A stretch of DNA of 42,378 nt from Candidatus Pullichristensenella excrementigallinarum (lineage in GTDB: Bacteria; Bacillota; Clostridia; Christensenellales; Aristaeellaceae), in NCBI GenBank assembly GCA_018714825.1, contig DVMU01000180.1, positions 1 through 42,378 of the forward strand, given 5' to 3'. Positions 2,840-41,213 of this stretch are shown one piece after another. Numbering within the stretch: the stretch's first letter is position 1; every line of letters begins with the position of its first letter. Under the pieces are notes generated by a model. That model had not been told where the DNA came from. It saw nothing but the letters and a program-made list of their open reading frames with translations, and did no database searches. Made by a program: the position numbers and the translations under genes.

Positions 2840-4831
2840 ATGGAGGATCGCAAGAAGTTCTATATTACCACGCCCATCTATTACCCGAGCGGAAACATGC
2901 ATATCGGCCACACCTATACCACCGTGGCCGCAGATACCATGACGCGCTTTAAGAAGATGACCGGGTATGACACATACTTTCTCACCGGAACGGATGAGCA
3001 CGGGCAGAAAATCGAAAGGAAGGCGGAACAGGCCGGAAAGACTCCCAAGGAATTTGTCGATGAGATCGTGGCTGCGACCAAGGATCTCTGGAAATTGATG
3101 GAGATCGAATACGACGATTTTATCCGCACCACCGATGCGCGCCATGAAAAGGCCGTGCAGAAGATCTTCCGCAAATTCTACGAGCAGGGCGATATCTACA
3201 AAAGCGCCTATGAGGGTCAGTATTGCGCGGAATGCGAGGCGTTTTGGACGCCCACGCAGCTCAAGGAAGGCAATCTCTGTCCGGATTGCGGCCGCCCGAC
3301 CGAGACCGCGCGCGAGGAAAGCTATTTCTTCCGCATGAGCAAGTATCAGGATTGGCTGATCGAGTATATCGAGACGCATCCGGATTTCATCCAGCCGCCC
3401 TCCCGCGCCAACGAGATGCTCAACAACTTCCTGCGCCCGGGCTTGCAGGATCTGTGCGTGAGCCGCACCTCGTTTAAGTGGGGCGTGCCGGTGGATTTCG
3501 ATCCGGATCATGTGGTGTATGTGTGGATCGACGCGCTTTCGAACTATATCACGGCCCTGGGTTACGGGAGCGAGGACGATTCGCTGCTGCGGAAATTCTG
3601 GCCGGCAGACGTGCACCTGGTCGGCAAGGAGATCGTGCGGTTCCACACCATCTATTGGCCGATCATGCTCCATGCCCTGGGGCTGCCGCTTCCCAAGCAG
3701 GTGTTCGGGCACGGCTGGCTTCTGTTCGGAAACGACAAGATGTCCAAATCCAAGGGCAACGTCGTCTATCCCGGCCCGATCGTGGAGCGCTACGGGGTGG
3801 ACGCGCTCAGGTACTATCTCATGCGCGAGATGCCCTTCGGTTCGGACGGCAACTATACCAACGAGGCCATGCTCACCCGCACCAACGCGGACTTGGCCAA
3901 CGATCTGGGCAATCTCGTCTCCCGCACGGTGGCGATGATCGAAAAGTATTTCGGTGGAGCGGTGCCTGCGCCCCATGCGGAAGAGGAGCCCGACCGGGCG
4001 CTGCGCGAGCGCTATGAGGCGCTGCCCGCGCTGGTGGAAAAGTATATGGACGAATTGCAGTTCTCCCTCGCGCTCTCCGAAATCTGGAAGCTGATCGGCG
4101 ATTGCAACCGCTATATCGATCTGACCCAGCCCTGGATTCTGGGAAAGAGCGAGGAGGGCCGCCCGCGCCTGGAGACGGTTCTGTACTACCTGGCCGAATG
4201 CGTGCGCGCCATCGCGGTGTATATCGCGCCGACCATGCCCAAGACGCCCGCGCGCATTTTTGAGCAGCTGGGCGTGACCGATCCGGAGCTTTTCACCTGG
4301 CAGAGCGTCCAGAAATTTGGAGGGCTCAAGCCCGGAACGGTCGTGCACAAGGGCGCGGCGCTCTTCCCGCGCATCGACATTGCCAAGGAATTGGAAATCC
4401 TCTCCGGCGGCGATTCCGGGAAAAATCCGGACCCGCAGCCCCAAAAACAGCAGAAAAAGCCCGAAGCCAAGGCGGAAGAGACGCCCAAGGAGGAGGGCTT
4501 CGGCCTGATCACGGCGGATGATTTCTTCAAAGTGCAGCTGGTGACGGCCAAGGTCGTTTCCTGCGAGCGCGTGCCCAAGAGCGATAAACTGCTCAAGGAA
4601 ACCCTGGATGTGGGCGGCGAGACGCGCACGGTGCTCAGCGGCATCGCCCAGTGGTACACGCCCGAAGAAATGGTCGGGAAAACCGTTGTGCTGGTCAAAA
4701 ACCTCGCGCCGCGCAAGATGCGCGGGATCGTCAGCGAGGGAATGCTCCTGTGCGCCTCGGACGCGCAGGGCAATCTCAAGCTGGTGACGGTTGATGGCGG
4801 CGAATTCGCCTCCGGATCGGAGATCGGCTAA
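2840..4831 (+). CDS. metG: Methionyl-tRNA synthetase
   Basis: Charges tRNA-Met with methionine in the cytoplasm. The class I catalytic core is clear: HIGH at 21-24 and KMSKS at 300-304. A CxxC pair plus second CxxC (C129, C132, C147, C150) forms the zinc knuckle of the four-cysteine MetG type. The C-terminal 100 residues (about 560-663) are an EMAP-II/Trbp-like tRNA-binding domain joined by a Lys/Pro/Glu-rich linker near 540. At 663 residues the length is usual for the dimeric form. The start is placed at 2840 because GGGAGG lies seven bases upstream; an in-frame ATG at 2807 falls inside the leader and has no spacing to a ribosome site. Regulation is by the T-box described above. The stop overlaps the tatD start by one base, so the two are translationally coupled. 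Confidence 0.97.
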   Translation: MEDRKKFYITTPIYYPSGNMHIGHTYTTVAADTMTRFKKMTGYDTYFLTGTDEHGQKIERKAEQAGKTPKEFVDEIVAATKDLWKLMEIEYDDFIRTTDARHEKAVQKIFRKFYEQGDIYKSAYEGQYCAECEAFWTPTQLKEGNLCPDCGRPTETAREESYFFRMSKYQDWLIEYIETHPDFIQPPSRANEMLNNFLRPGLQDLCVSRTSFKWGVPVDFDPDHVVYVWIDALSNYITALGYGSEDDSLLRKFWPADVHLVGKEIVRFHTIYWPIMLHALGLPLPKQVFGHGWLLFGNDKMSKSKGNVVYPGPIVERYGVDALRYYLMREMPFGSDGNYTNEAMLTRTNADLANDLGNLVSRTVAMIEKYFGGAVPAPHAEEEPDRALRERYEALPALVEKYMDELQFSLALSEIWKLIGDCNRYIDLTQPWILGKSEEGRPRLETVLYYLAECVRAIAVYIAPTMPKTPARIFEQLGVTDPELFTWQSVQKFGGLKPGTVVHKGAALFPRIDIAKELEILSGGDSGKNPDPQPQKQQKKPEAKAEETPKEEGFGLITADDFFKVQLVTAKVVSCERVPKSDKLLKETLDVGGETRTVLSGIAQWYTPEEMVGKTVVLVKNLAPRKMRGIVSEGMLLCASDAQGNLKLVTVDGGEFASGSEIG

Positions 4832-19288: not shown

Positions 19289-22200
19289 TCACTGCATCAG
19301 TTGGCGAATGGTTTCCGAATCCACGACGGCGTTTTCATCGTTGGGATCGAGCACCGGCAATTGCGCGATCGTGGGATCGTCCGCATTGCGCTGGTTAAAA
19401 TCCTGCTGGAAGCGCATCACCGCCGTGCGGGTTCCCAAATCAAACACGCCCTGCTGGGGAGCGTCGCTCTCATAGAGATACCCACGGCTTACCAGAATGT
19501 TCTGCAAGGCCAGGATCACATCCGAAGAGGAATTGCGATCGATGGTCGAGATGGTCTCCGGCGGATTGGTGGGATTCTCCACCGGCGGGTCCGTGGGATT
19601 CTCCGCCGGTGGATCGGTCGCTTCGGGAGCGGCCAGGGCAAAGCGCACGGTGGAATACTGCATATCCGCTTCCGTGCCGCCCACGGGAATCGCGCCCACA
19701 TACAGGGTGTAGACCACGCCGGAGGTCAAATTCGAGGCGGGCGCTTCCCAAGAAGTCTTGTCCGTGGTCTGCTGGGGCACCAATTCACTGCCGTTGCTGT
19801 CCACCAATCGAACCACATACGTCTGCACGTCGCCCTGGGCCGACCAGGAAAAGCGCACCGCGTCCGCAAAGTAGAGCACGTCGCCCTCAGAATAGCTCTG
19901 GCCGGAGCCCTGGATGCTCGGCGCGGAAATCTCGCTGACCGGCGGCTGGGTGACGGGCGGCTCGGTTACTTCGGGAAGGTCGCGGGCAAAGCTGAAGTTG
20001 GCCACTTTGACATCCGCCTCCGTGCCGCCCACGGGAATCGCGCCCACATACAGGGTATAGACCACGCCTTCGGAAAGGCTCGAGATGTCCACGTTCATGG
20101 AGGTGTTGGCGGTGGTTGTCTCGTTGATCAGGCCGTTGACGCTGTCCTCAAGCCGGACAATGTAGCCCTGCACCTCGCCTTCGGCCGACCAGGAAAGAGT
20201 CGTCGAGGAAGAGAGGAAGTGGATTCCCTCTTCGGTGCGGGAGACATTGCCCGCCTGGATGGTGGGCTCGGAGATCTCGCTGACCGGCGGCTCGGTTTCC
20301 TCCGGAACGTCCAGGGTAAATTGCACCGAGGAATAGACGATGTCTTCTTCCGTGCCGCCCGCGGGGATCGCGCCCACGCGCAATTCATACACCACGCCCG
20401 GCGTCAGGGAGGAGGCGGGGAAGTCGTAATAGTTTTCGGCCGTATCCACCGGGCCGAGGGAGCCTCCGTTGGAATCGGTCAGTATCAGGCGATAGCCCGC
20501 GACGTCTCCCTCCGTGGCCCAGGAAATCCGGGTCGAACCCTCGACATAGCTCACGCCGTTTTCCACGGATACCAGGCTGCCGACCGTGATTTCCGGCGCG
20601 GAGACCTCGCTGACGGGCGGCTGGGTGACGGGCGGCTCGGTGGCCGCGGCCTTGGTCGAGAAGAACATATAGCTCGAACGGGCATCTGCTTCCGATCCGC
20701 CCGCGGGGATGGCAGTGACTTCGATCTCATAGACCAATCCCGGCGTGAGGATGGAGGCGTCGAAGGAAAGGCTGGTGGAGGTCACGGCCTGATCCTGCAG
20801 AACCTGACCGTTGCTGTCGGTAATCTTTACCCGATAGGTGGCGTTTTCGCCCGCGTCCCAGGAGATGGTGACCTGGCCGCTGACGATGTAGATTTCGTCT
20901 TCCACGCCGTCATAGCTGCTGAAGGAGATGACCGGGTCGGTGATGCCCTGGGAAGGATTCTCGGTCGGGGTCGCGGAAGGCGTTTCCACCGGATCGAGAG
21001 AGTTGACGTAGTTTTCGAGATATTGCAGGGTCTTGGCGTCGCACAGGCCGGTGACCTTCAGCGTGTTCGCGCCCCATTGCTGGTTGACCAGTTCCTGGAA
21101 GCGCGTGACCGCCGCCTGGGTGTTCTGCCCGTACTGGCCGTCCGCGGAGGAGAGCAGGCCCAGATACACCAGCTGCTCCTGCACAAACCGAATCGATTCT
21201 TCGGGGGAATCTGGGCCGACCAGGACATCGTCCTCCCCGGCCTCGCCGGGATCTTCGGTGGGCAGAGCCGTCGGCGTGGCGGTCGGCGTGGCAGTCGGCG
21301 TGGCGGTCGGGGTGGCGGTTGGCGTGGCGGTCGGAGTGGCCGTGGCCTGCTGCATCTTCCAGTTGACGGCGTCCTCGAGATAGCCCAGGGTTCGGGCATC
21401 GCACAGGCCGGTCACTTCCAGGGTGCCCGCGCCCAGCTGGCTGTTGACCCAGTTCTGGAAGTATTTGACCGCGCTGATCGTGGAAGGCCCGTATACGCCG
21501 TCCGCCTGATCCAGAAGCTCAAGATAGACCAACTGTTCCTGCACGAACCGGATGGCGATGGGATCGGAATTCTGATCCACATAGTCGCCCTCGCTGGGCT
21601 CCTGGGTGGGCTCGAGGGTGGGAAGCTCCGTAGGCGCCGAAGTGGCGGTCGCGCTGGGCGAAGCTGAGGGCTTGTTGGCCTCCCACCACTGGGTGACATA
21701 CTCGAGATAGCGAAGCGTCAGTTCATCGACCTTTCCGGTAACTTGGAGCACATTCTTGCCCAAGAGGCGGTTGACATAATCCTGGAATTCCCATACCGCA
21801 CCGCTGGTGGCGGAGCCGTACACGCCGTCCACCTTGTCGAGCATTCCCAGCCGCACCAGGTAATCCTGCACCAGGCGGATCAGGGTCGGGGAGGAATTCT
21901 CGTCGATCACGGGCTGCGCCGTCGCGGTGGGAGTGGGCGTCGCGGTGGGGGTATTGGGCTTGACCGAGAGCGGATACTGATCCAGCCAGTACAGCGTCTT
22001 CGGACCGGCGATGCCATCCACGGTCAATCCCGCCTGATAGGTGCTGTTCATATAGCTCTGGAAATCGCGGATCGCCTGCTTGGTGGCGCTGTCGTAACTT
22101 CCGGTGGCGCCGTTTTTGTTCAGCCAGCCCAGTTCAATCAGCTGCCATTGGAGATTGGCGATCTCCGAAGGCGAGGAATTCGAATTGATCACCTGGTCGG

Positions 22201-22987
22201 TCGGGCGCGGCGTGGGAGCAGGCGTGGGCGTCGGCGTGCGCGAAATATCTTCCAACGCCTCAAATTCATTGTCCACATTGCCCTGATAGATATAGTCCAT
22301 CCACGAAAGCTCCGGATCCTTAATCGGGGCGTAGGACGCGGAGGCATAGGGCGTGGGAGAAGGCGTTTCTTCCGGCATCCAGGAAGCGTTCAGAGAGGGC
22401 GAGGGCGTCTGGCGAATATCGGAGGTGTCAAAGGCATTGGAAAGCAGGCGGATCAGCAAAAATGCCACCGCCAGCACCACCACCGCCGCCGCGCCGATTA
22501 GGATCGCGAGCTGCCGGGTTGTGCGCCGGGTTTCATCGCCGCCATCGGAAATTTCCTGCGCGTGAGAGGCGGACTTGCGCTGCGCGATATAGGCGGTTCC
22601 GTTTTCCTCAAAGAAGAAATGCCGCTTTTTTGGGTCTTCAACTCGCTCGACCGAAGCGCGCAGCTTTTGAATGCCCTGTTCAAAGGCGTCCTCCGCGCCC
22701 GGCACGGGCACGACGGAGCCGTCGTTGAGGCGCTTGGCGCTCTCGCGCGGCAGATATTCGCGAATGCGCAATTTGGCTTCGCGCTTGGTATCATACGCCA
22801 TATAGACGATGCCCGTGGCATCCTGCCCCATCGCCCGGCCTACCAGGAACCGGTTATGATAGAGCATCGTGCCCGGCAAAAGCTGGATCTGCGGCACGGC
22901 GGCGCGGGAATCGCGGCCGCAATGGGGACATACGTCCGCTCCGCCCAGATCCTCAAAGCAATACATGCAAAGGTTCTCGTAAGCCAT
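19289..22987 (-). CDS. Mosaic membrane protein: zinc ribbon, degenerate kinase N-lobe, five peptidoglycan-binding and four Fn3-like domains
   Basis: A 1232-residue protein. Residues 7-23 form a zinc ribbon (C7, C10, C20, C23). Residues 37-118 resemble the N-lobe of clostridial Ser/Thr kinases (LPGTMLYHNRFLVGRAMG, IREYLP, AFEQGIQKL). However, the glycine loop is altered (GQDATGI), the usual VAIK lysine is arginine, and no C-lobe follows. A membrane helix lies at 159-182. Outside it come Thr/Pro linkers and four PG_binding_1 modules (starting near 272, 366, 474 and 594), four Fn3-like domains each with ISWxAxG/YTLYVGAIPVGG patterns, and a fifth PG-binding module. The start follows GGAGGAGG. It probably links a cytosolic sensor to the wall. 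It is downstream of the HAD-tmk fusion on the same strand. Confidence 0.85.
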   Translation of the reverse strand: MAYENLCMYCFEDLGGADVCPHCGRDSRAAVPQIQLLPGTMLYHNRFLVGRAMGQDATGIVYMAYDTKREAKLRIREYLPRESAKRLNDGSVVPVPGAEDAFEQGIQKLRASVERVEDPKKRHFFFEENGTAYIAQRKSASHAQEISDGGDETRRTTRQLAILIGAAAVVVLAVAFLLIRLLSNAFDTSDIRQTPSPSLNASWMPEETPSPTPYASASYAPIKDPELSWMDYIYQGNVDNEFEALEDISRTPTPTPAPTPRPTDQVINSNSSPSEIANLQWQLIELGWLNKNGATGSYDSATKQAIRDFQSYMNSTYQAGLTVDGIAGPKTLYWLDQYPLSVKPNTPTATPTPTATAQPVIDENSSPTLIRLVQDYLVRLGMLDKVDGVYGSATSGAVWEFQDYVNRLLGKNVLQVTGKVDELTLRYLEYVTQWWEANKPSASPSATATSAPTELPTLEPTQEPSEGDYVDQNSDPIAIRFVQEQLVYLELLDQADGVYGPSTISAVKYFQNWVNSQLGAGTLEVTGLCDARTLGYLEDAVNWKMQQATATPTATPTATPTATPTATPTATPTALPTEDPGEAGEDDVLVGPDSPEESIRFVQEQLVYLGLLSSADGQYGQNTQAAVTRFQELVNQQWGANTLKVTGLCDAKTLQYLENYVNSLDPVETPSATPTENPSQGITDPVISFSSYDGVEDEIYIVSGQVTISWDAGENATYRVKITDSNGQVLQDQAVTSTSLSFDASILTPGLVYEIEVTAIPAGGSEADARSSYMFFSTKAAATEPPVTQPPVSEVSAPEITVGSLVSVENGVSYVEGSTRISWATEGDVAGYRLILTDSNGGSLGPVDTAENYYDFPASSLTPGVVYELRVGAIPAGGTEEDIVYSSVQFTLDVPEETEPPVSEISEPTIQAGNVSRTEEGIHFLSSSTTLSWSAEGEVQGYIVRLEDSVNGLINETTTANTSMNVDISSLSEGVVYTLYVGAIPVGGTEADVKVANFSFARDLPEVTEPPVTQPPVSEISAPSIQGSGQSYSEGDVLYFADAVRFSWSAQGDVQTYVVRLVDSNGSELVPQQTTDKTSWEAPASNLTSGVVYTLYVGAIPVGGTEADMQYSTVRFALAAPEATDPPAENPTDPPVENPTNPPETISTIDRNSSSDVILALQNILVSRGYLYESDAPQQGVFDLGTRTAVMRFQQDFNQRNADDPTIAQLPVLDPNDENAVVDSETIRQLMQ
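21267..21338 (-). repeat. 12-bp tandem repeat encoding (ATPT)n
   Basis: Six units close to GCGGTCGGCGTG (plus strand) encode the Thr-Pro linker near residues 549-575 of the mosaic protein. Unit-to-unit differences are single third-position changes. Copy number is likely variable between strains. Confidence 0.9.
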
Positions 22988-23041
22988 GGAGTCCTCCTCC
23001 TTCTCGCCTGCGGACAAGGGAAAATCTTGTCCGTTCCCTCT

Positions 23042-24307
23042 CTAGTGCAGAAAATCCAGAACCGCCGCTTCGACGGCCGAATAGACGGTATCGATGCTTC
23101 CGGCCGCGTCGATCACGCGGAAGCGATCGGGTTCCTGTTCGCTCAAACGCCGGTATCCCGCGAGCACGCGATCAAAGTACTGGGCCTTTTCGACCTCCAT
23201 GCGATCCGAGGCGTGCGCGGCCCGTTGCCGACCCAACGCGGTCGCGGCGTCGGTCAACAGAAGCACGGTCAGATCCGGTTTCAATCTTCCGACAGCGGGG
23301 GCGTTTATTTGACGTATCAAATCCTCTCCAAGTTCACGCCCGTAGGCCTGATAGGCAATGGAAGAATCTAAAAATCGATCGCAAAGCACGATTTTCCCCG
23401 CCGCCAGCGCGGGGAGGATGATCGAACGCACATGCTCCGCGCGCGCGGCCGCGAACAAAAGCGCCTCGCATTCGTCGGACATGCCCAGGGAACCGATATC
23501 GAGCACGACCTGCCGGATGCGCTCGGAAATCGGGCATCCGCCGGGCTCGCGGGTGAATACAAGGGAATATCCCATTTCCTCCAGACGCGCCCGCAGGCGG
23601 TTGAGCTGCGTGGTCTTGCCGGAACCGTCGGTTCCCTCGAAGGTGAGGAATCGCCCCCTGGGAAGGGGAACTTCCAGAAATTCCCGCAGCGCTTGCGGCG
23701 TTTCGACAATCTGATCCGCCCCGGCCTGTTCCAGTTCCTCCCGGCTTCCGTATCCGTATGTCACGCCGATGGTGAAAAAGCCGCGCCGCCTGGCGGCCTC
23801 GATATCGAATCTGCGATCGCCCACCATGGCGACCCGGCCGGGATTGCGGCCCTCCAGGGCGCGGGCGATCAGGTGTTCCTTGTCCGAGCGGCGCTCGTCG
23901 TAGCGCGTGCCCACCAATCCGTCGAGCAGCCGATCCAATCCGAAATACCGGGCAACCTTCTGCGCCAGCGGCTCGGGCTTGCCCGTCACGATGATCGAAT
24001 GTCCGCCCGATCGCGCGATGCCCGAAAGCAGATCCGGAATACCGGGATAGACCCGGTTTTCCCGCCAGCCGACTTCGCGGAAGCGCTCGCGGAAGACTTC
24101 TATGGCCCGCGATACGTCCTCTTCGCGCACGCGCGCGATCTTTAAAAGCGATTCGTACAGCGGAGGCCCCACGAATTCCCGCAATCGCTCTTCCGGGGGA
24201 ACGGGATAGCCGAGCGTTCGGAGCGCGTGCGCGACGCTCTTTTCAATGCCTTCGCCGGATTGAGTGAGGGTGCCGTCCAAATCAAAGAGGATTGTATCAA
24301 ACCGCAT
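23042..24307 (-). CDS. tmk: HAD-family phosphatase fused to thymidylate kinase
   Basis: A single 421-residue frame with two enzymes. Residues 1-213 are a HAD phosphatase of the Gph/PpaX type: FDLDGTL with Asp9 and Asp11, Thr108 in VTGKPE, Lys143, and VGDRRFD with Asp164. Residues 216-421 are a full dTMP kinase: P-loop EGTDGSGKT with Lys231, FTREPGG (251-257), DRFLDSSIAYQ (310-320) and a Gln/Arg lid near 360. The joint (EFLEVPLPRGRFLTFEG) has no in-frame ATG, GTG or TTG and no ribosome site, so tmk is not separately translated. The start overlaps the decarboxylase stop by 11 bases, with AAAGGAG upstream. Next to YaaO-like decarboxylase, tmk is in its normal Firmicute context. Confidence 0.92.
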   Translation of the reverse strand: MRFDTILFDLDGTLTQSGEGIEKSVAHALRTLGYPVPPEERLREFVGPPLYESLLKIARVREEDVSRAIEVFRERFREVGWRENRVYPGIPDLLSGIARSGGHSIIVTGKPEPLAQKVARYFGLDRLLDGLVGTRYDERRSDKEHLIARALEGRNPGRVAMVGDRRFDIEAARRRGFFTIGVTYGYGSREELEQAGADQIVETPQALREFLEVPLPRGRFLTFEGTDGSGKTTQLNRLRARLEEMGYSLVFTREPGGCPISERIRQVVLDIGSLGMSDECEALLFAAARAEHVRSIILPALAAGKIVLCDRFLDSSIAYQAYGRELGEDLIRQINAPAVGRLKPDLTVLLLTDAATALGRQRAAHASDRMEVEKAQYFDRVLAGYRRLSEQEPDRFRVIDAAGSIDTVYSAVEAAVLDFLH

Positions 24308-25619
24308 GGTCAATTTCTCCTTTTTCCACAATGGAAACCGCGTCGCCTTCCAGGCCGAACAGCGTCGCTCCCATCGCGCGCATCTGTGCCAGGAACGCCA
24401 CGACCTCCCCGGTAAAGCGTTCGCCGGGCAATATCGCGGGCCATCCGGGCGGATAAGCGCCCACCGCGCGGGCCGCAATTTTCCCCGTCGCCCGCTCGAG
24501 GGGCACAGTTCGGGAAGGGGAGAGCGCAGCCTCCCGCAGGGGCATTTCGCGAATCCCGACAGGGGCCGGGGGAAACGCCTTCTGCGTTCCCTCGCCGCCC
24601 TGGAGCGCGCGCAATCCATCCACAAGGTGGGAAAAGTCTTCTTCCCGGTCGAATACCGTCGAAATCGCGACGACACGATGCAAATCCGCCATTTCCAGGG
24701 CCAGTCCCCGATCCCGCAATTGGGCGTAGGCCTCCCAGCCCGTCAGCCCCAGGCCGGAGACGTCCAACGTCAGCCGCGTTGGATCTCCGCCGGCGCGCAT
24801 TCGCAGGCCGGAAATCGAGGCAATATCGCGCCGGAATGCCGCGCACAAGGAAAGCAGGCGCTTGAGCGCCTCTGTGCCGTTGGCATCCATCCAGGCGCGC
24901 GCGTTATCCAGCGAGCGCAAAATCAGAAAGGAGGGGCTGGAACTGAAACTCAGGCGCAGCATTTCCCGAGCGCGGGGGGCGTCCTGCGGGTTTTTCAGAT
25001 GCAGCCAAGCGCCGCCGGTCAGGCAGCCCAGCGTCTTGTGCGCGCTTTCCACCGAGAAATCCGCGCCCAGCCGCACGGCGGAGAGCGGGCGATCCCACCA
25101 ATGGAAATGCGCGCCGTGCGCGGCGTCCACCAGGACCTTCATGCCCCGCGAATGCGCCGCGCGCGCGATCGCGCCCAAATCCGGGCAATTGCCGTAATAA
25201 TCCGGATAGGTCACCAGCACCGCCCGCGCGGCGCTCTTTTCGATCGCCGAAAGGAAATCCGCCGCCGGATGCACCGCTTCCGGCTCCACGCCAGCCAACA
25301 CGCAACCGGAAAAGGCCGAATGGTGCGCGTCGCGAGAGAGAAGCAGCCGATCCCCGGGAAACAGCGCGGAGAGGATCGAGGCATGGATGCCCGAAGTGGC
25401 CCCGCCGCTGAGCAGCATCGACGCGCCCGCGCCCGCAGATTGGGCCAGGAGTTCTTCCGCCCGGCGGATGCCGCTTGTCGGGGCGTAGAGATCGTCCGTG
25501 TTCCACAATTCGGTCATGTCCAATTCCGAGGGAATGGCGCCCAGACGCCCCTTGTGTCCGGGCATGTGAAAGCGCGTAAACCCCTGCGCCCGCGAGAGCA
25601 TGGCATCGATCGGCCGCAT
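24297..25619 (-). CDS. Orn/Lys/Arg decarboxylase family PLP enzyme (YaaO-like)
   Basis: A 440-residue fold-type I PLP enzyme of the Orn/Lys/Arg decarboxylase major-domain family. Visible signatures are FHMPGHKG (17-24), GATSGIHA (73-80), VLVDAAHGAH (162-171) with the PLP-ring Asp165, and the Schiff-base lysine Lys195 in SAHKTL. It is the short form, like Bacillus YaaO, which is also encoded just before tmk. Which amino acid it uses cannot be read from sequence. AAAGGAG precedes the start, a strong promoter lies upstream, and it is translationally coupled to HAD-tmk. Confidence 0.92.
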   Translation of the reverse strand: MRPIDAMLSRAQGFTRFHMPGHKGRLGAIPSELDMTELWNTDDLYAPTSGIRRAEELLAQSAGAGASMLLSGGATSGIHASILSALFPGDRLLLSRDAHHSAFSGCVLAGVEPEAVHPAADFLSAIEKSAARAVLVTYPDYYGNCPDLGAIARAAHSRGMKVLVDAAHGAHFHWWDRPLSAVRLGADFSVESAHKTLGCLTGGAWLHLKNPQDAPRAREMLRLSFSSSPSFLILRSLDNARAWMDANGTEALKRLLSLCAAFRRDIASISGLRMRAGGDPTRLTLDVSGLGLTGWEAYAQLRDRGLALEMADLHRVVAISTVFDREEDFSHLVDGLRALQGGEGTQKAFPPAPVGIREMPLREAALSPSRTVPLERATGKIAARAVGAYPPGWPAILPGERFTGEVVAFLAQMRAMGATLFGLEGDAVSIVEKGEIDHAV

Positions 25620-25673: not shown

Positions 25674-25702
25674 ATTATAAAATACAATTGTGACATTCTC
25701 AA
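25674..25702 (-). promoter_or_regulatory. Sigma-A promoter of the decarboxylase-tmk operon
   Basis: Minus-strand TTGAGA (25697-25702), 17 bases, TATAAT (25674-25679). The -35 overlaps the end of addB. The leader holds a small dyad ATGAAA/TTTCAT at about 25641-25660 just before the ribosome site. Confidence 0.8.
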
Positions 25703-28700
25703 TCATCGATTTTGACAAATCCCTCTATTGCCGCGAGCACTTGGGGAAGCGACATCTTATCGATCTTGCGCAGGCGCTCGGCATGGACCTTGGGATCGTT
25801 CAGGCAAGCGCTCTTCCATCGGCAGAATTCGCAGGCGTCCGAAGAGGGGGTTCGAACCGGGGCGGGGGCGGCTTTCCCCCCGCGAATGTCGCGCACATGC
25901 GCGCCCGCCATGCGCAGAGTATGCCCGATCAGTTTTTCAAAGCCCTGCTGATCGGTACAATTTCCCTGCTTTCCCACAGAACCGTCCTGATTGCGCCGGA
26001 GCCGGAGCACCCGGTCGAATTGCGGAGCCATGGCGCTGAGAAGCCGCGCATCATTCGGGGCCAGGCCGTCCATGCGCAAAGAGCGCATCCGCTCGGCCTC
26101 GATTTTTTGGGGATCGGTTTCCTGGGTGGAGAGAATACCCTCATCCATGCGGAAGTAGAACACGCCCGCGCTCTTGCCGCCCCTGCGCCTGAGCGCGGTG
26201 GCCAGATAGGTCAGCAGTTGCAATTGCAATCCGCAATAGATCTCGCACATCTCCAGGGCGCGCGCCGAACGCTTGTAGTCGATCACGCGCAGGTAGGTAT
26301 CCTCGCCGTCCGTCCACTCGTCCACGCGGTCGATCGTGCCCTCCAGCACGCAGTCGCCCGCCACGAGGAGTTCGCCGCGCCCCTCCTGGAAACGCATTTC
26401 CAATTCCACGGGTCGAAACAGGCTGTCCTGCAGGTGTTCGGCGAGCACCCTGGCCGCCGTGCGCGCCACGCCGCGCAGCCGCCGCTCCTCGGCAAGGGAA
26501 GTCGCCGTTTGACCCAGCGGCCCCTCGCGCAGCGCGCCCAACAGGGCGGAGGAAATTTCATCCATGCGGCTTTGCGCCCGATCGGGGTCGATATGGCCGT
26601 CCTTGTCCAGGGCGTCGGCGAGGAAAGAGCGCACGGCGTCGTGGAAAAACAGGCCCTCGTCGCGCGGGGTGAGCTGGTAGGGATCCACAACCAGCGGCTG
26701 GAGGCCGTATTGCGCGAAATGCTGGAAAGGGCAGCGCGCAAAGCTCTCCAGCCGCGTCACGCTGGCGCGCCGGAGCTTTCCATACAGTTCCCGGGCCGTT
26801 CCGGGACGCAGGCGCTCCGCCTCTTCGGGCAGGCGCAAGGCGGACCGAAGCCGCGCGAGGGCCTCTCCCGCCTGGGGAAGATCCTTCAGCGCGCGCAACG
26901 CCTCGCGCTCAACCTGTCCGGCCTCCAAGAGCCTCCCGGAAAGGCCCTTGATCGCGGCGCTCGAGGATTCCATCAGCATTCGGGAAAGCGAGAGATCTTC
27001 CGCCAGGCCTCCGCGAAAGTGGAGCGCGGGAAAGATCTCGCGGATCTGCTCGACCATTCCGGAGGGCTGCAACGCCTGATCGTCCGCTCCGTTGAGCGGA
27101 AAGGAGATCATGACGTACTCCGTGGCCATGGCAAGCGCGCATTTGATCGAATACATATCCGAACGCGCGGCGTCCGAGACGTCCGGGCCGAGATATTTGC
27201 GCGTCTTTTCACTCAGGCGCAATTTTTGCTGCAAATTCAAAAGCCCGCCCGGCGCGCCCGCGGCCCGATCGCTCGCGCCCAGCACGATAACGGCCCGAGT
27301 TGCCTGCATGGAGATGCGCTCCGCCTCCTGGGCGAATACCGCGTCTCCGGATTGCGGCAGGGGCTTGATCACCGCCGCGTCCAGGGATTCCTGCAACAGC
27401 GCGAGCAGCTCTCCCAGGGGCAATTTGCGCTCTCCCAGGATGGCGTGCATTTGGTCGAGCGTGCCCAATACGCGGTTCCAGACCTGCGCCTGCTCTCCCG
27501 CTTCGCGGCGCAGATCCAGGGCCTTGAATTCTTCCTGCTTTTGGAGGCTGCGCTCATAGGCGCGAATATCGGTCAAAAAGCCGAACAGCGCCGCAAGCTG
27601 CGCGGGGAGATTCTCCGCCTCCCGCAGGGCCGCGCGCAGGTTCGCCACCGGGCGGAAGGCCCGCTCGCGGATGGGTTCCAGCGCTTCGACAACCTCCTGC
27701 AAACCTCGCCGCAGGGGGCGCAAAAACGCTTGCCCGGCCAGTCCGTATTGTACCGCGTAGTTGCGCAGGCGGTCGGCCTCGTCCGGTTCGATATCGAGAA
27801 ATCCCGTGCCGATCAGCGCGAGGGCGTCTTCCGTGCGGAAGTTGTAGACCAACAATGTCAAAGCCCCTAAGAGGGATTCGGTCAGCGCGTGCCGTGAAGC
27901 CGGACGGCTCGAGGAGAGAAACAGCGGGATTTCATATTCCCGGAACGCTTCCTCCAGCGCCTGATGATAGTCCTCCAGGCCAAAGCAGAGAATGCGCATG
28001 TCGTTCCATTTCCAATGCCTCTGCCGGGCCAGCCTGCGGCACAGGGCCGCGGCATAGAGCGCTTCCTGCTGCGGGTTGCGCGCCTGCAAAAGCTGGACGG
28101 CTCGGGGAACGCCTCCCTCCCAGGGGCGGCAAGGGAAGGCAAACAGTTCCTTTGTCAGATATCGAAGTTCCGGATGGCGGAAATCCTCTGCCTCGTCCAC
28201 GGCGACGCGTTCGGCCAGGGCATTGGCCTCCCGGGCGGCGAGCAACAGCCTGCGAACCGAAGCCTCCAGCGGGTGAAACAGATCATAATCGCGCGCGCGA
28301 CGGTCATTGGGCAGGGGGATAAGCGCGCTTACCGGGCAGACTGCGGCCAACGCGCCCATCAGGCGGTTGACGGTGGGCGGCGTCATGTCGAACCCATAGA
28401 AGCAGATCTCGCATTCGGAAAGAAACGTTGCGTCCCGCACGCGCGCCGTGGCCTCGAACAGTTCGGATTCCCCATCCTGATAGCGCCCGGCAAGCGCGTT
28501 CTCATAGGCCTGCAGGATTTCGGCCAGGTCGCCGATTTTGTTGGCAAGGGAGCCGGAAAAGCCCTCGGCGGCTTCGCGCAATTCCTCCGGAGTGACGGCG
28601 GCCTGGCGCAGAATTTCCAGATCCTGCATACACCTTTGCGCAAATCCGCGCCGGTTTTCCGCGCCCCGATAGGCGGTCAGGCGGCCCTTGAGGGAAATCA

Positions 28701-28986
28701 GCGCGCGGCGGATGAGCATCACGCGGCCCCGCGCGTCGATCCGTTCCCCCTCCGGCGCCCCGGCGGCCTCAAAGATGCGCCCGCACAGCCGCTCGGGACT
28801 GAGCACCTGCAGCCGGAAGGAGCCGCGCAGGCCGAGGCCCCCAAGCAATTTGAGCTCGGTTTCCAGCGTCAGCCGCTTGGGAACGACGACCAGAAGGCTC
28901 TTCTCCGTCTCCTCCAGCACCCGCCGCGCCTCCGCGATCAATTGCCCTTCCAGGAGCGGAAGCCTTCCCGTCAACACCCGAAGCAT
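25699..28986 (-). CDS. addB: AddB-like helicase-nuclease subunit
   Basis: A 1095-residue protein resembling AddB/RexB, which with AddA processes double-strand breaks for recombination. The C-terminal RecB-type nuclease is clear: GTIDRVDEW then VIDYKRS near residue 900. The four-cysteine Fe-S staple is present: C752 in RCPFQHF, and C1052, C1055, C1061 in CEFCRWKSAC, the same C-x2-C-x5-C spacing as Bacillus AddB. The N-terminus lacks a P-loop (RVLTGRLPLLEGQ where AddB has GxxGxGKT), as in RexB. ATG 28986 has GGAGG seven bases away; the ATG six bases upstream is too close to it. No addA follows: the next gene is the decarboxylase. Confidence 0.88.
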   Translation of the reverse strand: MLRVLTGRLPLLEGQLIAEARRVLEETEKSLLVVVPKRLTLETELKLLGGLGLRGSFRLQVLSPERLCGRIFEAAGAPEGERIDARGRVMLIRRALISLKGRLTAYRGAENRRGFAQRCMQDLEILRQAAVTPEELREAAEGFSGSLANKIGDLAEILQAYENALAGRYQDGESELFEATARVRDATFLSECEICFYGFDMTPPTVNRLMGALAAVCPVSALIPLPNDRRARDYDLFHPLEASVRRLLLAAREANALAERVAVDEAEDFRHPELRYLTKELFAFPCRPWEGGVPRAVQLLQARNPQQEALYAAALCRRLARQRHWKWNDMRILCFGLEDYHQALEEAFREYEIPLFLSSSRPASRHALTESLLGALTLLVYNFRTEDALALIGTGFLDIEPDEADRLRNYAVQYGLAGQAFLRPLRRGLQEVVEALEPIRERAFRPVANLRAALREAENLPAQLAALFGFLTDIRAYERSLQKQEEFKALDLRREAGEQAQVWNRVLGTLDQMHAILGERKLPLGELLALLQESLDAAVIKPLPQSGDAVFAQEAERISMQATRAVIVLGASDRAAGAPGGLLNLQQKLRLSEKTRKYLGPDVSDAARSDMYSIKCALAMATEYVMISFPLNGADDQALQPSGMVEQIREIFPALHFRGGLAEDLSLSRMLMESSSAAIKGLSGRLLEAGQVEREALRALKDLPQAGEALARLRSALRLPEEAERLRPGTARELYGKLRRASVTRLESFARCPFQHFAQYGLQPLVVDPYQLTPRDEGLFFHDAVRSFLADALDKDGHIDPDRAQSRMDEISSALLGALREGPLGQTATSLAEERRLRGVARTAARVLAEHLQDSLFRPVELEMRFQEGRGELLVAGDCVLEGTIDRVDEWTDGEDTYLRVIDYKRSARALEMCEIYCGLQLQLLTYLATALRRRGGKSAGVFYFRMDEGILSTQETDPQKIEAERMRSLRMDGLAPNDARLLSAMAPQFDRVLRLRRNQDGSVGKQGNCTDQQGFEKLIGHTLRMAGAHVRDIRGGKAAPAPVRTPSSDACEFCRWKSACLNDPKVHAERLRKIDKMSLPQVLAAIEGFVKIDD

Positions 28987-29022
28987 CTTCATTCCTCCCG
29001 CAAACGGAATTGTATTTCCTCA

Positions 29023-38980: not shown

Positions 38981-40591
38981 ATGGCACAATTGCGCATATT
39001 GGATTGCACGCTGCGCGACGGCGGCTATGTCAACGATTTTAATTTCGGCGCCCGCGAATTGACGGAGATCGTGGGAATGCTCTCGCAATCGGGCGTAGAG
39101 ATCATCGAATGCGGGTTTCTGCAGGATCACGCCGACAATCCGGATCAGTCCCTGTTCGCCTCGGCGGAGGATGTGCGGCGCGTGCTTTCGAAAAGAAACG
39201 CGCGCAGCATGTATGTGGCCATGCTGCAATTGGGACGGTTTCATGTGGAAAATCTGGAGCCTTGGGACGGGACGTCCATCGACGGCGTCCGCCTGACCTT
39301 TCACGAACACGAAATCGAAGAGGCGTTTTCCGTGGGCGAGGAAATTCAGCGGCGGGGGTACAAGCTGTTTATGCAGCCGGTGGGGACCAACACCTATCCG
39401 GACGACGTGCTTTTGCAAATCGTTCGCCGCGTAAACCGGATGCGCCCGTATGCGTTCTATCTGGTCGATACGCTCGGCTCCATGTACAAAAACGATCTGA
39501 TGCGGATGCTTCTGGCCGTGGATCACAATCTCGCCGAGGGAATCCTCCTGGGCTTTCATTCGCACAACAATTTGCAGCTCTCCTTTTCCAACGCGCAGCA
39601 GCTCGCGGAATTGACGACCAAGCGCGAAATCCTTCTGGATTCTTCGGTCTTCGGCATGGGCCGGGGCGCGGGCAATCTGTGCACGGAACTGATCTGCCAA
39701 TATATCAACGAAAATATCGAAAATCGCTATTCCATGCTTCCGATTCTCGAAATCATGGATGAATATGTCAATCCCATCTTTCGCAGGACGCCCTGGGGCT
39801 ATTCCGCGGCGCACTACCTTTCCTCCATCAACGGATGCCATCCCAATTACGCGACCTATTTTCTCGATAAGCAGACCATTTCCGTGCGGGATATTCACGC
39901 CATCATCCGTTCGATGGAACCGGAACGGCGCGTGCTGTTTGATCGGGAATACGCGGAGGAAAGCTACATCCGCCATCTGCAAAGCGCCGTGGATGATCAC
40001 GCGGCCCTGCAGCGGCTGCGCGAAGTAGTCGGAGGCAGGAGCGTTCTGCTTCTGGCTCCCGGAAAATCGCTCAATACGCATCGGGATAAGATCCGCGCCT
40101 TCCTGGAAGGCGAGCGGCCCGCCGCGATTTCGATCAATTTCCTCCCGCGGGAGATCCCGGTGGACGGCGCGTTTATCAGCAACCTCCGCCGTTTCCGCGC
40201 GCTGGGCGAGGAAAGCCGCTGCCTGGAGGGAAAAACCCTCTTTGTGACTTCCAATATTTCCCCGGAGGGAATTCGCGCGCAGGTGCTCAATTACTCCAGC
40301 TATCTCAACGACGATCCCGAGATTTCCGACAACGCGGGATTGATGTTGATCAACGCGCTGGTCAAATGCGGGGTGGGCGAGGTCATTTTGGCGGGATTCG
40401 ACGGCTATCTTCCCGATCCCCGCGCGAACTATTTTACCGAGCGCATCGTTTCCACCGCCGAGGACGTGCGCCTCAAGCGCATCAACCGCGCCATTGCCGA
40501 GCGCGTGGCGCAACTGCGCAAGACCATCGCGGTGCGGTTTCTGACGCCTTCGATCTATCAGGGGGATTTTGATGCCGACGATCTTGTTTGA
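38981..40591 (+). CDS. DRE-TIM (HMGL-like) aldolase fused to a DUF115-like C-terminal domain
   Basis: A 536-residue two-part protein. Residues 1-280 are an HMGL-like metallolyase/aldolase, closest in pattern to 4-hydroxy-2-oxovalerate aldolases: LDCTLRDGGYVNDF (7-20) with Asp8, Arg12 and Asp13, and the metal ligands His193 and His195 in GFHSHNN. GMGRGAGN (225-232) is also typical. These enzymes form or cleave 4-hydroxy-2-keto acids from pyruvate-type enolates. Residues about 350-536 are extra and resemble the neighbouring DUF115 protein (SVLLLAPGKSLNTHRD, GLMLINALVKCGVGEVILAGFDGY). It follows the DUF115 gene after three bases and overlaps the HAD gene by 20 bases. Confidence 0.85.
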   Translation: MAQLRILDCTLRDGGYVNDFNFGARELTEIVGMLSQSGVEIIECGFLQDHADNPDQSLFASAEDVRRVLSKRNARSMYVAMLQLGRFHVENLEPWDGTSIDGVRLTFHEHEIEEAFSVGEEIQRRGYKLFMQPVGTNTYPDDVLLQIVRRVNRMRPYAFYLVDTLGSMYKNDLMRMLLAVDHNLAEGILLGFHSHNNLQLSFSNAQQLAELTTKREILLDSSVFGMGRGAGNLCTELICQYINENIENRYSMLPILEIMDEYVNPIFRRTPWGYSAAHYLSSINGCHPNYATYFLDKQTISVRDIHAIIRSMEPERRVLFDREYAEESYIRHLQSAVDDHAALQRLREVVGGRSVLLLAPGKSLNTHRDKIRAFLEGERPAAISINFLPREIPVDGAFISNLRRFRALGEESRCLEGKTLFVTSNISPEGIRAQVLNYSSYLNDDPEISDNAGLMLINALVKCGVGEVILAGFDGYLPDPRANYFTERIVSTAEDVRLKRINRAIAERVAQLRKTIAVRFLTPSIYQGDFDADDLV

Positions 40592-41213
40592 TATTGACGG
40601 AACCCTTCTGGATACGGCTCCGGGCGTAATGGAGGCCGCGCGCTTCGCCATAGGCGAGATGGGCTTTGCCGCGCTTCCCGATGAGGTGCTCCGGCGCTTT
40701 GTCGGCCCGCCGCCGGTAGAATCCTATCAGAAATTTTGCGGGGCCACCGAAGAACAGGCGCACAGGGCCGCGGCATTGCATCGGCAATACGGGCGCGAAA
40801 AGGGATTATACGCATCCCGCCCCTATCCGGGCATGGCGCGGCTGTTGGAGGAATTGGAAAAAAGCGGCGCGCGATTGGGCGTGGCTACGCTCAAGGCCCA
40901 GGACGTGGCCGAGAGCATCCTGGAATATCACGGATTCAAGGCAAGGTTCGGGGCGATCGTGGGCGTGGATGCGACGGAGACGCGCACCAAGCGCCGGACG
41001 ATCGAATTGGCGCTGGAGCAATTGGGCTCCCGCGCGAGCGAGGCCGTTTTGATCGGGGACAGTGAGTACGACCGGGAAGGGGCTTCCCGAGCGGGCGTTG
41101 CGTTTCTGGGCGTGGACTGGGGGTACGGCTTTGCGCCCCACGCGCCGGGTACGGTTTCCACGGTCGCGGAATTGTCTGCGGCGCTGACAAAATGGATGGA
41201 GGAACTCCGATGA
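40572..41213 (+). CDS. HAD-family phosphatase (Gph-like)
   Basis: A 213-residue HAD phosphatase: FDIDGTLLDT (6-15) with Asp7 and Asp9, the threonine of VATLKAQDVAESIL, a conserved lysine in RTKRRTIELAL, and IGDSEYDREGA. The cap helices match phosphoglycolate phosphatase-like proteins. It starts at ATG 40572 after GGGGGA and lies inside the end of the aldolase gene. In this operon it could remove phosphate from a keto sugar acid-phosphate, the step done by KdsC (also HAD) in Kdo synthesis, or from a polyol phosphate. This role is inferred from position only. Confidence 0.88.
   Translation: MPTILFDIDGTLLDTAPGVMEAARFAIGEMGFAALPDEVLRRFVGPPPVESYQKFCGATEEQAHRAAALHRQYGREKGLYASRPYPGMARLLEELEKSGARLGVATLKAQDVAESILEYHGFKARFGAIVGVDATETRTKRRTIELALEQLGSRASEAVLIGDSEYDREGASRAGVAFLGVDWGYGFAPHAPGTVSTVAELSAALTKWMEELR

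Follow-up and report, generated by a model that had tools for sequence, protein, structure and literature searches.

Thymidylate kinase (Tmk) is an essential enzyme and an antibacterial target. The protein described here has a kinase half that shares with bacterial Tmk (PF02223/TIGR00041) the full-length domain, all catalytic motifs and the fold, but unlike these enzymes it follows an N-terminal HAD domain and lacks a separate start codon. The other half shares with Gph/PpaX-like HAD-IA phosphatases (COG0546 type; structures 3mc1, 3sd7 and 2ah5) the fold, a C1 cap with the GPPL motif and the complete catalytic set; it differs from that group in scoring under both equivalog cut-offs and in being joined to Tmk. 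In PNKP, too, a HAD phosphatase is followed by a P-loop kinase in a single chain, whereas the present fusion has a dTMP kinase instead of a polynucleotide kinase, lacks an FHA domain and shows no sign of DNA substrates. The HAD-Tmk fusion is a new architecture built from two known families; no report of it was found in the open-licence literature, although it may still be reported elsewhere.

The fusion gene and its two domains

The window, i.e., the whole stretch of 42,378 nucleotides that was analysed, contains the fusion gene and the following associated features:

25699-28992: AddB, near the fusion gene
24297..25619, minus strand: Orn/Lys/Arg decarboxylase-like gene, upstream, overlapping the start of the fusion by 11 nt
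24317..24323, minus strand: Shine-Dalgarno-like AAAGGAG within the last codons of the decarboxylase gene, read directly from the sequence
23042..24307, minus strand: HAD-Tmk fusion gene, 421 aa, ATG start 24307-24305, stop 23044-23042
23675..24307, minus strand: HAD-IA (C1-cap) phosphatase domain, residues ~1-211 (Pfam HAD_2, NCBIfam, Foldseek 3mc1)
23657..23674, minus strand: joint, residues 212-217 (EVPLPR)
23045..23656, minus strand: dTMP kinase domain, residues ~218-421 (PF02223, TIGR00041, Foldseek)
19289..23017, minus strand: zinc-ribbon/PG_binding/fn3 gene, downstream of the fusion, a neighbor in many members of the family (f1)

An earlier note on this DNA had claimed that two complete enzymes share one frame with neither a start codon nor a ribosome site at the joint, and our analysis bore this out. 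The minus-strand frame 24307..23042 contains no stop codon over 421 aa, and the gene encodes a single protein consisting of a HAD-IA phosphatase and a complete bacterial dTMP kinase, with full Pfam and NCBIfam domains and both active sites intact. A longer frame from an alternative GTG start also exists; the ATG at 24307 is preferred because of the AAAGGAG at a distance of 9 nt and the agreement with the starts of homologs. The six residues of the joint lie between the final HAD helix and the initial kinase strand. No in-frame ATG, GTG or TTG occurs from codon 183 to codon 244, the nearest in-frame starts on either side being a GTG at 182 and an ATG at 245 (the latter beyond the P-loop), and no ribosome site was found at the joint. 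Synthesis of a separate Tmk from an internal start was rejected, since the window gene has none; in homologs, GTG, TTG and ATG codons are scattered and their positions are not conserved. A check for a second tmk in the source assembly (2.18 Mb, 92% complete; a draft MAG of 225 contigs) returned one PF02223 match, the fusion gene itself, so that the sole dTMP kinase is made as a fusion, as had been proposed.

The phosphatase half matched Pfam HAD_2 above cut-off (residues 6-182, 2e-22) and has the features of HAD subclass IA, namely D9, D11, T108, K143, D164 and D168 (DxD, T/S, K and GDxxxD) together with a C1 cap. In Foldseek searches it matched structure 3mc1 (TMt 0.90, 39% identity). Equivalog scores fell below threshold for phosphoglycolate phosphatase (TIGR01449, 94.3 vs 180; PRK13222, 94.9 vs 225) and for the PpaX pyrophosphatase (PRK13288, 78.7 vs 218), and the YjjG pyrimidine nucleotidase model TIGR02254 gave no match to this half at E <= 0.001; with scores sub-threshold or absent, all three identities (Gph, PpaX and YjjG) were rejected. 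The kinase half matched Thymidylate_kin (PF02223, residues 223-409, 2e-50) and is a member of the equivalog family TIGR00041 dTMP_kinase, at 184.7 bits over residues 217-410 against a cut-off of 83.25, i.e., more than twofold. It contains the P-loop GTDGSGKTT, the REPGG dTMP site, DRF and the LID arginines R360/R369, and its TMt to bacterial Tmk structures (5x7j and 3uxm among them) was 0.90-0.95. The fusion modeled as a single chain with a pLDDT of 91.5 and a pTM of 0.88, which suggests a defined arrangement of the two domains.

Alignment of 27 fusions with 40-52% identity to the window protein showed that D9, D11, K143, D164 and D168 of the HAD half are invariant, with T or S at position 108, as are the P-loop, REPGG, DR, Q320, R324, R360 and D368-R369-x-E371 of the kinase half. 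The joint is 6-9 residues long in all but one of them.

Conservation and loss of the fusion

Among 60 relatives searched, full-length fusions (41-53% identical) were present throughout f1, while the other families sampled there had single-domain proteins only. Named relatives in the GTDB collection are MAGs labelled Clostridia or Christensenellaceae, which suggests that the order is Christensenellales. A PF02223 match was found in 74 of 80 f1 genomes, nearly always as one gene per genome, and for 69 of these 74 the frame holding the main match is 420 aa or longer; HAD and Tmk in one frame were checked directly in 37 f1 genomes. The only copy of dTMP kinase in this gut-type Clostridia family appears to be the second half of a phosphatase fusion. 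The five exceptions comprise G008 and G023 (gaps of N), G026 (a contig end), and G015 and G719, which carry a divergent stand-alone Tmk. The split genes in G008 and G023 are only apparent, the joint being covered by runs of N. The earlier note had named a frameshift between the domains as what would undo its proposal; the same uninterrupted fusion in dozens of genomes excludes one.

An f1-type HAD alone, either stopping early or running into an unrelated tail, was found in four relatives (G015, G719, G698 and G713). Because the HAD persists alone in these four after loss or replacement of the kinase, its role is independent of the tether and it has a function of its own. The same downstream zinc-ribbon neighbor persists in G015, G719 and G698. 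Two of the four, G015 and G719, encode a divergent Tmk elsewhere, whereas G021, a congener of G719, is fused. The divergent stand-alone Tmk-like genes (EGLDGSGKATQ) of G015 and G719 are at L195 1048-1839 (+) and L196 1086-1838 (-), and apparently stand in for the fused kinase that was lost. The stand-alone HAD loci are L183 (G698), L184 (G015), L185 (G719) and L186 (G713); in G698 an unrelated tail of ~80 aa occupies the place where the kinase would be. As to the product of the downstream gene in the window (19289-23017, minus strand), it is large and combines a CxxC zinc ribbon at its N-terminus with five PG_binding_1 stretches and with repeats of fn3.

Distribution and origin of the fusion

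Fusions were sought with a profile at three levels: the order (297 genomes), the class (a sample of 391) and the phylum (a sample of 399). The threshold was tuned to homologous fusions, such that Tmk joined to an unrelated HAD could escape. The architecture proposed in the earlier note recurs across f1 and, within the order, also in f23 and f33 (six apparent fusions and one, respectively). One of the six, in G083, was rejected as a close pair with two TGA stops and a tmk start of its own, bringing the f23 count to five. Fusions were confined to f1 in the class sample, and the phylum sample yielded none except that of the window. HAD-like relatives are common elsewhere in the class; in the sampled genomes they are on a different contig from tmk or distant from it. 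A distant CPR candidate, L096, was rejected, as it consists of two tandem Tmk-like genes only; this pair, at 3001-4284 of a Candidatus Gottesmanbacteria contig, has a divergent first member.

In the sister families f2, f17, f21, f23 and f33, the HAD and tmk genes are separate and adjacent, with HAD first, and mostly overlap or lie within ~30 nt (an ATGA in L149, a TAATG in L038, other pairs a few bases apart). Judged from the sequence, the overlapping pairs have what is the geometry of translational coupling, and translationally coupled gene pairs have been reported for tmk in general (PMC3711429). The decarboxylase also adjoins unfused tmk in the order and therefore belongs to the older tmk neighborhood.

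In a carefully built HAD+Tmk tree, four fusion/fission changes were needed to account for the fused state, each of them forced by branches with good support, and placing all fusions in one clade was rejected (p-AU = 3e-58); a quicker tree gave the identical four changes, three of them forced. The changes are located in f1, in an f23 clade, in G191, which sits in an f23 genus with unfused pairs, and in G090 of f33. The tmk start codon is lost in G191 and G090, so neither is a sequencing slip. The tree alone does not distinguish four separate fusions from a smaller number combined with fissions, each fission demanding a new start and a ribosome site, and the same join appears to have arisen about four times in the order. 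About four origins in related bacteria make this a real and repeatable arrangement.

Discussion

The window gene probably encodes a constitutive bifunctional housekeeping protein derived from a translationally coupled HAD-tmk pair that became fused, with the two activities produced at a fixed 1:1 ratio. What the sequences show is one frame, intact active sites, a single Tmk, adjacency in sister families and repeated switching between fused and unfused states; we infer from this that both domains are active and that the adjacency is ancestral. The C-terminal domain would be the cell's dTMP kinase (dTMP + ATP -> dTDP + ADP), and the N-terminal domain a catalytically competent Gph/PpaX-like HAD-IA phosphatase that would hydrolyse some small phosphorylated metabolite. 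The fusion would be born when a coupled pair loses the stop codon of its HAD gene along with the start codon of tmk, as may have happened some four times in the order. The main gain would be fixed 1:1 synthesis and co-location of co-transcribed enzymes, not obligatory transfer of substrate between sites, and the protein may be cleaved at the joint after translation.

Repeated fusion could reflect the mere ease of joining overlapping neighbors. A neutral origin, in which the chance loss of a stop and a start joined operon genes of unrelated activity, agrees with the overlap or spacing of at most ~30 nt in most unfused pairs, with the known occurrence of tmk in translationally coupled pairs (PMC3711429) and with the renewed parting of HAD and Tmk in some relatives. 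We nevertheless regard it as rather unlikely, since the fusion arose repeatedly and is retained in nearly all sampled members of f1 (more than 40 genera), and since the equally close decarboxylase was never noticed fused to either domain. It is unlikely, too, that the HAD half is a nucleotidase (for dTMP, for dUMP or for a damaged dNMP) by which the fusion counteracts or proofreads the kinase step and sets the balance of dTMP and dTDP. Many HAD-IA enzymes hydrolyse nucleoside monophosphates, which counts in favor of such a role, as does the evolution, on about four occasions, of a physical tie to dTMP kinase; against it stand the missing YjjG match with Gph and PpaX as top models (both sub-threshold), the four relatives in which the HAD survives though the fused kinase is gone, and the class-wide HAD relatives that are not next to tmk. 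Direct nucleotide coupling of the two halves is possible. The proposal that the HAD serves dTMP kinase as a dedicated partner, hydrolysing for example a non-canonical dNMP or an inhibitory by-product, and that selection for coupling drove the roughly four fusions, strikes us as distinctly unlikely.

A PNKP-like enzyme, with phosphatase and P-loop kinase acting jointly on DNA ends or oligonucleotides, is suggested by the order of domains in metazoan PNKP (HAD phosphatase, then P-loop kinase) and by the nearby AddB (25699-28992), yet it is highly improbable given that the kinase half has all conserved dTMP-kinase motifs, is a TIGR00041 dTMP kinase rather than a polynucleotide kinase domain and is the only dTMP kinase of the genome, and that the HAD half resembles Gph/PpaX-type small-molecule enzymes. 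The draft state of the MAG (225 contigs) and two relatives that look split, though by way of N runs at the joint, could point to two genes joined by an assembly or sequencing error; the chance of this is negligible, because dozens of separate, independent genomes, including the near-closed G030, G208 and G310, have this fusion without interruption, which excludes chance or assembly error.

This is a lineage that always makes Tmk with a phosphatase, and the repeated joins and occasional separations provide matched natural pairs of fused and unfused enzymes. With these pairs one can ask directly whether the fusion of genes reflects coupling in metabolism. They also offer a route to the substrate of a large, unassigned HAD group. 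The window also encodes a second Gph-like HAD phosphatase (40569-41213, plus strand), which is 33% identical to the fused HAD and scores below the cut-offs of all phosphatase equivalogs.
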